DNA of 64,000 bases, taken from assembly GCA_903833215.1 (NCBI GenBank), contig CAILEM010000077.1, positions 62,001-126,000 on the forward strand. Reading direction: 5' to 3'. Shown one piece after another: positions 38,029 to 40,156 of this stretch. Positions within the stretch are counted from its first letter, which is position 1, and the number at the start of each line of letters is the position of its first letter. The notes under the pieces are model-generated. The model was given only the letters and a program-made list of their open reading frames with translations. It ran no database searches and was not told where the DNA came from. The translations under genes were made by a program, and so were the position numbers. The stretch is from an uncultured Armatimonadota bacterium. Its GTDB lineage: Bacteria > Armatimonadota > Fimbriimonadia > Fimbriimonadales > Fimbriimonadaceae.

Positions 38029-38424
38029 ATGGCCCATCTGGAATCCGAATTGGTGAGGCACGCACTCAGTGTTGCCCGTCAGCATGGGTTTGCCGAAGTT
38101 GAACTGGCAATTGGCGACGAGAGCTTTTCCGCTCGACTTGAACCACTGCCCAAGAAATCTCGCGCAAGCAAAGCGGCCGAAGCGGCAGCCGCCGAACCAG
38201 AATTCCAGGTTGTTACGGCATCCCTCGTTGGTTATTATCGCGAGTCCAAGACTCCCCTGAAGGTCGGAGCAGCAATCAAGAAAGGCGACGTCGTCGCCAT
38301 CATCTCTGCACTCGGAATCGCCAACGACGTGGAATCAAAAGTCACCGGAGAAGTCGTCGAACTGTTAGTAGAGCCCAATCAGCCCGTTGAGTACGGGCAG
38401 GCACTCGCAAAGGTGAAAATATGA
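38029..38424 (+). CDS. AccB-like biotin carboxyl carrier homologue lacking the biotinylated lysine
   Basis: 131 residues. The layout is that of AccB: an N-terminal helix region ('HALSVARQHGFAEVELAIGD'), a short Ala/Lys linker, and a C-terminal biotinyl/lipoyl domain from about residue 60 ('VVTASLVGYYRESKTPLKVG', 'GEVVELLVEPNQPVEYGQAL'). Where BCCPs have E-A-M-K-L/M-M-N, this protein has S93-A-L-G96-I-A-N99, so the acceptor lysine is glycine (GGA), two base changes from any Lys codon. It cannot be biotinylated at the normal site. It heads the operon with accC. Plant BADC proteins are comparable: BCCP-like, no lysine, inhibitory subunits of acetyl-CoA carboxylase. The start ATG lies 9 nt after a TAAACT box. 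Confidence 0.85.
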   Translation: MAHLESELVRHALSVARQHGFAEVELAIGDESFSARLEPLPKKSRASKAAEAAAAEPEFQVVTASLVGYYRESKTPLKVGAAIKKGDVVAIISALGIANDVESKVTGEVVELLVEPNQPVEYGQALAKVKI

Positions 38425-38801
38425 AACAGATTCGAGGCAACACGCTTGTCGGGACACTGGTAGCGATCGCACTTATGGCTGTTTTGGCAGTCGCCCTTTT
38501 CAAGGGAAGTAGCGCGTTTGGTGGAAAATCTCTCCCTTCAAGAAAGGACGGCAAGGGAACAACGGTTATGGGGCAAGCCGAGCTCGCAGCAAAGGACACC
38601 GTTTGCCGCACTTACCTTGGTGAACTCCGCGCTTCGTTAATCATCGCTCAATCAAACAACGAAGAGAAATTCCCTGAGCAACTTCAAGATACAAAACTTG
38701 GGCAAGAGTTCTACAAATGTCCGCTCGGCGGAGAGAAGTACGTTTACGATCCAACGAACGGCAAGGTCGCTTGTCCACATCCGGGTCACGAGAAATACTG
38801 A
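38421..38801 (+). CDS. Small pilin-like membrane protein inside the acc operon
   Basis: 126 residues overlapping accB-like by ATGA and accC by one base. The N-terminus MKQIRGNTLVGTLVAIALMAVLAVALF, read as a basic leader, 'GNTLVG' and a hydrophobic helix, looks like a class III prepilin, but the Glu expected at +5 after G|N is Gly. The exposed part is short, with Cys at about 54, 93 and 116 and 'KYVYDPTNGKVACPHPGHEKY', reminiscent of pseudopilin C-termini ('Y-D-P..G..CP.H'). Function unknown. Its locked position between carboxylase subunits is unusual. Confidence 0.75.
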   Translation: MKQIRGNTLVGTLVAIALMAVLAVALFKGSSAFGGKSLPSRKDGKGTTVMGQAELAAKDTVCRTYLGELRASLIIAQSNNEEKFPEQLQDTKLGQEFYKCPLGGEKYVYDPTNGKVACPHPGHEKY

Positions 38802-40156
38802 TGTTAAGCAAGGTTCTGATTGCCAACCGTGGTGAGATTGCGTGCCGCGTAATCCGTGGATGTCGTGAATTGGGCATCAAGAGTGTCGCGATCTTCTCAG
38901 AAGTTGACCGCGAGAGCCTTCATGTGAAGCTTGCCGACGAAGCAATTTGCGTGGGGCACGGTTCGAACGGGGACTCCTATTTGAATCTTGCCAACGTTCT
39001 GATGGCTTGCCAGATATCGGGTGCCGAGGCCGTGCATCCCGGCTACGGATATTTCAGCGAGCGCGCGAACTTCGCAGTCGCACTCGAATCACTGGGGATT
39101 AAGTTCGTCGGCCCACCTACCGCTGCTATTGAGGCGATGGGCGACAAGGCGAGTGCTAAGAAGGCCGCTATCGCCTGTGATTGCCCTGTCGTTCCAGGTA
39201 GCGATGGCGCCGTCCCCACCGAGAGCGATGCTTTGGTCATCGCTGAAAAGATTGGCTATCCAGTCCTCCTTAAGGCGGTTGCGGGTGGAGGTGGACGCGG
39301 AATTCGGCGCGTCGATGCTCCCGAAGAACTCGCGGGCCTATGGAAGATGGCGCAAGCGGAAGCCCAGGCCAGCTTTGGGTCAGGCGAAATTCTGATTGAA
39401 AAGTGCGTTGTGAACCCAAGGCACGTTGAGATTCAGATCATTGGAGACTCGTTCGGAAACATGATTTACCTGGGGGAGCGCGAGTGCTCCATCCAGAACC
39501 TCCGACATCAGAAGTTGGTTGAAGAGGCCCCCTATGCCGATTTACCACCCGAAGTTCGAAAGCGAATGGGTGAGTGCGCGGTACGCGTTGCAAGTAGCGT
39601 TGGATACCAGAACGCTGGGACTGTCGAATTCCTCGTTGACTCGAACAATGATTTCTACTTCCTTGAGATGAACACTCGACTCCAAGTCGAGCATCCTGTG
39701 ACCGAAGAAATCACAGGTATTGACCTTGTTCACCTGATGTTGCAGATCACGAGTGGGCTTCCGCTGCCAATCAGCCAAGAAGATGTCGAAATCTCGGGAC
39801 ATGCGATTGAAGCGAGAATTACGGCGCAAGACCCTGATAAAGATTTCGCCCCTAGCACCGGTCGTATTACTGGCTGGCGCGCACCTGGTGGAAGAGGGGT
39901 ACGCATGGAAACACATTGTTACGCAGGGTTCTCAGTGAGCCCGTTTTACGATCCATTGTTGGCAAAGCTGATCGTGCGAGGCAGAACTCGCGAAGAAGCC
40001 GTCACCAAGCTTCAAACTGCGCTCCACGAGTTTGAGATTGAGGGGATCGCATCGAACATCCCGTTTTTGCGAAGGCTGGTAGCGTCGGAAGGTTATGAAA
40101 CTGGGCAATTCGATACGGGGTTTGTGCCTCGGTTCCTTGCCGGAGAAGCTCTTTGA
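38801..40156 (+). CDS. accC: Acetyl-CoA carboxylase biotin carboxylase subunit
   Basis: 451 residues from ATG 38801, overlapping the previous stop by one base (TGATG). All biotin carboxylase landmarks are present: 'VLIANRGEIACRVIRGCREL' at the N-terminus, 'HPGYGYFSER', the ATP-grasp loop 'KAVAGGGGRGIRRV', 'YLGERECSIQNLRHQKLVEE' (about 225-244) and 'FLEMNTRLQVEHPVTEE'. It carboxylates biotin on BCCP using ATP and bicarbonate, the first step of fatty-acid synthesis. Oddly, the carrier-like protein in the same operon lacks the biotin lysine, so a working BCCP must be encoded elsewhere. Confidence 0.96.
   Translation: MLSKVLIANRGEIACRVIRGCRELGIKSVAIFSEVDRESLHVKLADEAICVGHGSNGDSYLNLANVLMACQISGAEAVHPGYGYFSERANFAVALESLGIKFVGPPTAAIEAMGDKASAKKAAIACDCPVVPGSDGAVPTESDALVIAEKIGYPVLLKAVAGGGGRGIRRVDAPEELAGLWKMAQAEAQASFGSGEILIEKCVVNPRHVEIQIIGDSFGNMIYLGERECSIQNLRHQKLVEEAPYADLPPEVRKRMGECAVRVASSVGYQNAGTVEFLVDSNNDFYFLEMNTRLQVEHPVTEEITGIDLVHLMLQITSGLPLPISQEDVEISGHAIEARITAQDPDKDFAPSTGRITGWRAPGGRGVRMETHCYAGFSVSPFYDPLLAKLIVRGRTREEAVTKLQTALHEFEIEGIASNIPFLRRLVASEGYETGQFDTGFVPRFLAGEAL

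Follow-up and report, generated by a model that had tools for sequence, protein, structure and literature searches.

A lysine-less AccB paralogue encoded with biotin carboxylase in Armatimonadota, a candidate bacterial counterpart of plant BADC

Gene content and domain structure of the locus

Acetyl-CoA carboxylase (ACC) is the enzyme that starts fatty-acid synthesis, and AccB (BCCP) is its biotin-carrying subunit. The window, by which we mean the whole stretch of 64,000 nucleotides analysed from an uncultured bacterium of the Armatimonadota family Fimbriimonadaceae, encodes an AccB homologue, designated AccB2, followed by a prepilin-like small membrane protein and the biotin carboxylase AccC (Table 1). 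Where E. coli AccB has the biotinylation motif E-A-M-K-M-M-N, the product of the open reading frame at 38029-38424 reads S-A-L-G-I-A-N (motif region IISALGIANDVE), as the first-pass annotation reported; the site codons are GCA CTC GGA ATC GCC, and the GGA at 38314-38316 places Gly96 at the position of the Lys.

Table 1. Features of the accB2-accC locus in the window
Feature	Positions	Strand	Evidence
accB2, AccB/BCCP homologue without the Lys	38029..38424	+	ORF, 131 aa; profile matches and family alignment
N-terminal AccB domain, helix 6-19 and hairpin 23-36	38029..38136	+	AF2 pLDDT about 63-73; 4hr7_B profile alignment
Biotinyl-like domain (barrel-sandwich hybrid), residues 59-131	38203..38421	+	AF2 pLDDT about 83-90; Foldseek
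Site of the absent BCCP thumb, YRESKTPLKVG vs FYRTPSPDAKAFIEVG	38239..38265	+	sequence comparison
Leu95-Gly96, hairpin tip, in place of Met-Lys of the biotinylation motif	38311..38316	+	sequence, family alignment, AF2
Prepilin-like small membrane protein, overlapping both neighbours (ATGA and TGATG)	38421..38801	+	ORF, profile, synteny
accC, biotin carboxylase of 451 aa with its catalytic motifs	38801..40156	+	profile, motif alignment

The further claim that the protein is homologous to BCCP along its whole length is borne out by a profile built from 13 sequences of the AccB2 group, which matched full-length E. coli AccB (4hr7_B), N-terminal domain included, at 1.5e-31. Homology of the N-terminal domain is clear by profile but weak in pairwise comparison (5.8 bits), and identity to E. 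coli AccB is 26%. The product scores 38 bits against PF00364 and 62.6 bits (E 5.9e-17) against the BCCP model TIGR00531, under the equivalog cut-off of 115.2 bits. AccB2 shares with canonical AccB, as represented by E. coli AccB, the N-terminal domain and the biotinyl fold that an equivalog should have, together with a linker and the accC neighbourhood; it departs from canonical AccB, and from equivalog membership, in lacking the Lys, the thumb and a score above the cut-off, and its linker is short.

In the AF2 model of AccB2, the biotinyl-like domain is confident and the N-terminal helix and hairpin are weaker. Leu95-Gly96 lies between two strands at the tip of the hairpin, the place that Met-Lys occupies in BCCP. 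The closest structures by Foldseek are 1bdo, then 4hr7, then Arabidopsis BCCP1 (9a87). The BCCP thumb is missing from AccB2, whereas it is kept in AccB1, the canonical AccB described below; a single-sequence AF2 model of AccB1 reached a pLDDT of 40 and was left out of comparisons. A model of E. coli AccB suggests contact between the thumb and BirA (PMC10863985), and NMR has placed the contact with plant BADC on the thumb of BCCP (PMC11926652). That AccB2 has lost this element and AccB1 has retained it would agree with a division of labour between them. Both the thumb deletion and the prepilin-like reading frame between accB2 and accC went unmentioned in the first-pass annotation.

Conservation within the family

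A match to AccB2 was found in 60 of the 61 genomes searched, its own and those of relatives. All 30 of the best family members aligned carry x-L-G at the site, with L95 and G96 invariant, and in the census described below Gly stands at the Lys position in 50 of 50 family genomes. The Gly is thus common to relatives at the same locus, and a lone mutation or sequencing error is rejected. Among the relatives compared, L203 shows the least saturation of silent sites, the other pairs being near or beyond it; against L203, dN is 0.18 and dS 1.47, for a dN/dS of about 0.12, on which ground a pseudogene is likewise rejected. The AccB2 protein of L204 is the same as that of L012, from a genome of the same genus. 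AccB2 is under purifying selection, and the selection, the invariant positions and the intact frame uphold the first-pass view that the domain is not decaying.

A canonical AccB and other carboxylase genes in the same genome

Neither finding that the first-pass annotation named as a refutation, a sole BCCP biotinylated elsewhere or a lone mutation among relatives that keep the Lys, was borne out. The window genome (G000; 6.2 Mb, 99.97% complete) encodes a canonical AccB, with the motif EAMKVFNE and a thumb, on a different contig (C164), and the sole-BCCP reading is rejected. No other acc gene occurs near this canonical accB in the 14 kb read. Two carboxyltransferase reading frames, of the AccD and AccA types, lie together on contig C109.

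Two biotin carboxylase (BC) genes are present in the window genome, one in the accB2 operon and the other on contig C123. The latter, whose product is 45% identical to the window AccC, adjoins an enoyl-CoA hydratase-like gene, and a biotin carrier with the motif EAMKTQ is encoded next to an HMG-CoA-lyase-like gene. Judged by such neighbours, the C123 carboxylase and the EAMKTQ carrier look like a leucine degradation system; because of this resemblance, the window AccC is likely the biotin carboxylase of ACC. That AccB2 serves as partner of the leucine-degradation carboxylase is unlikely, as that system has a BC and an EAMKTQ carrier of its own.

Distribution in Armatimonadota

After a search of 201 Armatimonadota genomes, loci were fetched, and the accC-locus copy, counted as AccB2, was scored in 133 genomes. 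The residue at the Lys site is Gly in 80, Lys in 32, Arg in 13, Thr in 3, Asp in 2, and His, Asn and Ser in one each, so that Lys is absent from 101 of the 133 loci. In the 32 genomes that keep the Lys, AccB2 may still be a carrier. In all 40 genomes checked, a canonical AccB1 is encoded elsewhere alongside AccB2; the AccB1 motif in one of the 40 (G038) reads ANK. A single BC gene was found in 21 of the 40, and in 13 of those 21 AccB2 is without Lys; with only one BC available, the AccC in these 13 genomes must serve the biotinylated AccB1.

On a tree of 138 proteins, many of whose branches are weak, AccB1 and AccB2 form largely separate lineages. Mapped onto a 110-row AccC tree, the distribution of Lys and non-Lys states takes at least six changes, five of them forced by the starred branches; a hand count, which carries the uncertainty of that tree, gives about 12 losses if Lys is ancestral and was never regained. 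Read from the AccC tree, Lys loss in AccB2 is recurrent. One genome of family f5 (G054; loci L096 and L112) has an extra standard accB-accC operon, with a canonical AccB bearing EAMKIMNE, beside its Lys-less copy; the extra operon is perhaps acquired or contaminating.

In 114 of the 133 loci, the genes for AccB2, the prepilin-like protein and AccC lie together and share a strand; some of the other loci end at the edges of contigs or fetched stretches. There are also genomes in which accC does not adjoin accB2 (G086, G062 and G038). The prepilin-like protein matches PF07963 below the cut-off, has Gly in place of Glu5, and bears a C-terminal motif, CPLGGEKYxYDP..CPHPGHE. Its gene is also present at loci whose AccB2 bears Lys.

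Lysine-less AccB in Chloroflexota

A genome scan found Lys-less AccB also in Chloroflexota metagenome-assembled genomes (ETLGIRN, EVLNVLN), and a wider search of that phylum added further variants: ALNVIN, SLNVFN, TLGIQN, AMGMLN, TLRVMN and AMRMLN. Alphaproteobacterial matches from the scan proved to be ordinary AMK AccBs and were set aside. At the two Chloroflexota loci read (L218 and L219), a peptidase gene and efp precede the Lys-less gene, which stands directly after efp; many bacteria usually have accB in this place. Neither accC, within the fetched flanks, nor the prepilin-like gene was found at these two loci. A second AccB, with EAMK or ETMK, is encoded elsewhere in five of five Chloroflexota genomes tested.

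Discussion

The BADC proteins of plants, homologous to BCCP and devoid of a biotinylation motif, have been called unique to the plant enzyme (PMC11926652). AccB2 resembles BADC1-3 of the plastid heteromeric ACC in just this respect, and its identity to E. coli AccB is close to the 25-30% that BADC shows to BCCP; each coexists with a true BCCP, in an ACC whose subunits are separate. Unlike BADC, AccB2 is bacterial and encoded in an operon with AccC, and its paralogue lineage still bears the Lys in some families. On present evidence, and by likeness to BADC as described, AccB2 would work in the same manner.

Non-catalytic subunits of bacterial acyl-CoA carboxylases have reportedly been treated by Gago et al. 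in 2006 and 2011 and by Shivaiah et al. in 2021; to our knowledge, these are not BCCP homologues. AccB2 as read here would share with these subunits, which are cited in PMC11926652, a non-catalytic role in assembly. We found no bacterial non-biotinylated AccB in the open-licence literature, and no solved BADC structure among the best 60 of 112 matches when the PDB was searched with the AccB2 profile.

The presence of a second AccB with AMK, together with a Gly common to relatives, makes a BADC-like non-catalytic subunit the best reading, and to that extent the first-pass suggestion of a possible bacterial BADC holds. AccB2 is probably a non-biotinylated AccB paralogue that docks on AccC as a non-catalytic subunit of ACC, mixed with AccB1. 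In the E. coli subcomplex an AccC dimer binds four AccB, giving 2 AccC : 4 AccB (PMC3896788). The N-terminal domain of AccB2 would dock on AccC in the manner of its AccB counterpart, and some of the AccB places in the subcomplex would be filled by AccB2, giving mixed occupancy. AccB2 may then hold and position AccB1, the sole bearer of biotin, and the ratio of AccB1 to AccB2 could tune activity. The carrier task would have moved to AccB1, while assembly stayed with the operon copy. In favour of this reading are the constant pairing with AccB1, the genomes with a single BC gene, the gene order, the purifying selection, the repeated Lys loss, the joint absence of AccB1, AccB2 and ACC-type AccC from two reduced genomes, and the similar pairing in Chloroflexota. 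It is weakened by the faint pairwise similarity of the N-terminal domain, by the 32 genomes whose AccB2 keeps the Lys, and by the loci, in G086, G062 and G038 and in Chloroflexota, where accC is not adjacent.

The first-pass annotation had also proposed a built-in inhibitor, with a structural spacer as the alternative; the inhibitor is here the less favoured. Competition of AccB2 with AccB1 for AccC, lowering carboxylase activity, is suggested by the anatomy of a competitor, an AccB homologue of full length that lacks the Lys and whose gene accompanies accC, and inhibition was the role first given to BADC itself (PMC11926652, PMC12873504). We nonetheless think inhibition unlikely, since the presumed co-expression with AccC, constant and coupled in almost every genome, points to a stoichiometric subunit more than to a switch, and later work on BADC favours an assembly "glue" (PMC11926652). 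The two roles are still debated for BADC (PMC11926652, PMC12873504); for AccB2, we lean moderately towards assembly over inhibition.

Less probable still is that AccB2 is retained to control the accB-accC operon. The N-terminal domain of E. coli AccB autoregulates accBC transcription (PMC3896788), and AccB2 keeps both the domain and the operon position, but such a role leaves unexplained a conserved biotinyl-like domain with invariant Leu-Gly, as well as the Chloroflexota case, where accC is not adjacent. There is only a slim chance that AccB2 and the prepilin-like protein together put AccC at the membrane. At most loci the prepilin-like gene separates accB2 from accC, and in the window it overlaps the two, but it is absent from the Chloroflexota loci and accompanies Lys-bearing AccB2 as well; no connection of pilins with ACC is known to us. 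Decay of an accB duplicate, which repeated loss of the Lys to different residues might suggest, is scarcely credible: the relatives keep the reading frame and the operon, certain positions never vary, and selection is purifying.

Whether the reading of AccB2 as a non-catalytic assembly subunit extends further is, in our estimate, an evenly balanced question. Two phyla would then regularly combine two AccB types in their ACC, a biotin carrier whose gene is unlinked and a thumbless partner, encoded in the operon, with a purely structural or regulatory role; the Lys would have been lost many times in the partner, so that a BADC-type protein would be a recurrent outcome of AccB duplication rather than a plant invention. 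Armatimonadota and some Chloroflexota do pair a normal AccB with a conserved site-less copy, an arrangement described for BADC as unique to plants. If AccB2 is indeed a bacterial counterpart of BADC, natural Lys, Gly, Arg, Thr and Asp variants of the site encoded beside AccC would make the choice between inhibition and assembly testable in vitro, and the carrier and assembly functions of AccB would be separable in evolution. For annotation, an accB adjoining accC cannot safely be assumed to encode a biotin carrier.

Additional observations

The window AccC has a one-residue insertion in QNLRHQK, with the motif RECSIQNLRHQK where E. coli has RDCSMQRRHQK. The insertion occurs in most of the Armatimonadota families sampled and is absent in f21 and f33; a link to Lys loss was sought across the sampled families and is not strict. 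Two reduced genomes of 1.5 Mb within the family of the window genome (G228 and G232; L290, L291, L293 and L295) lack AccB1, AccB2 and the ACC-type AccC jointly. Both retain the other type of BC with its EAMKTQQ carrier, and the AccA-like protein of both is atypical, at about 480-500 aa.
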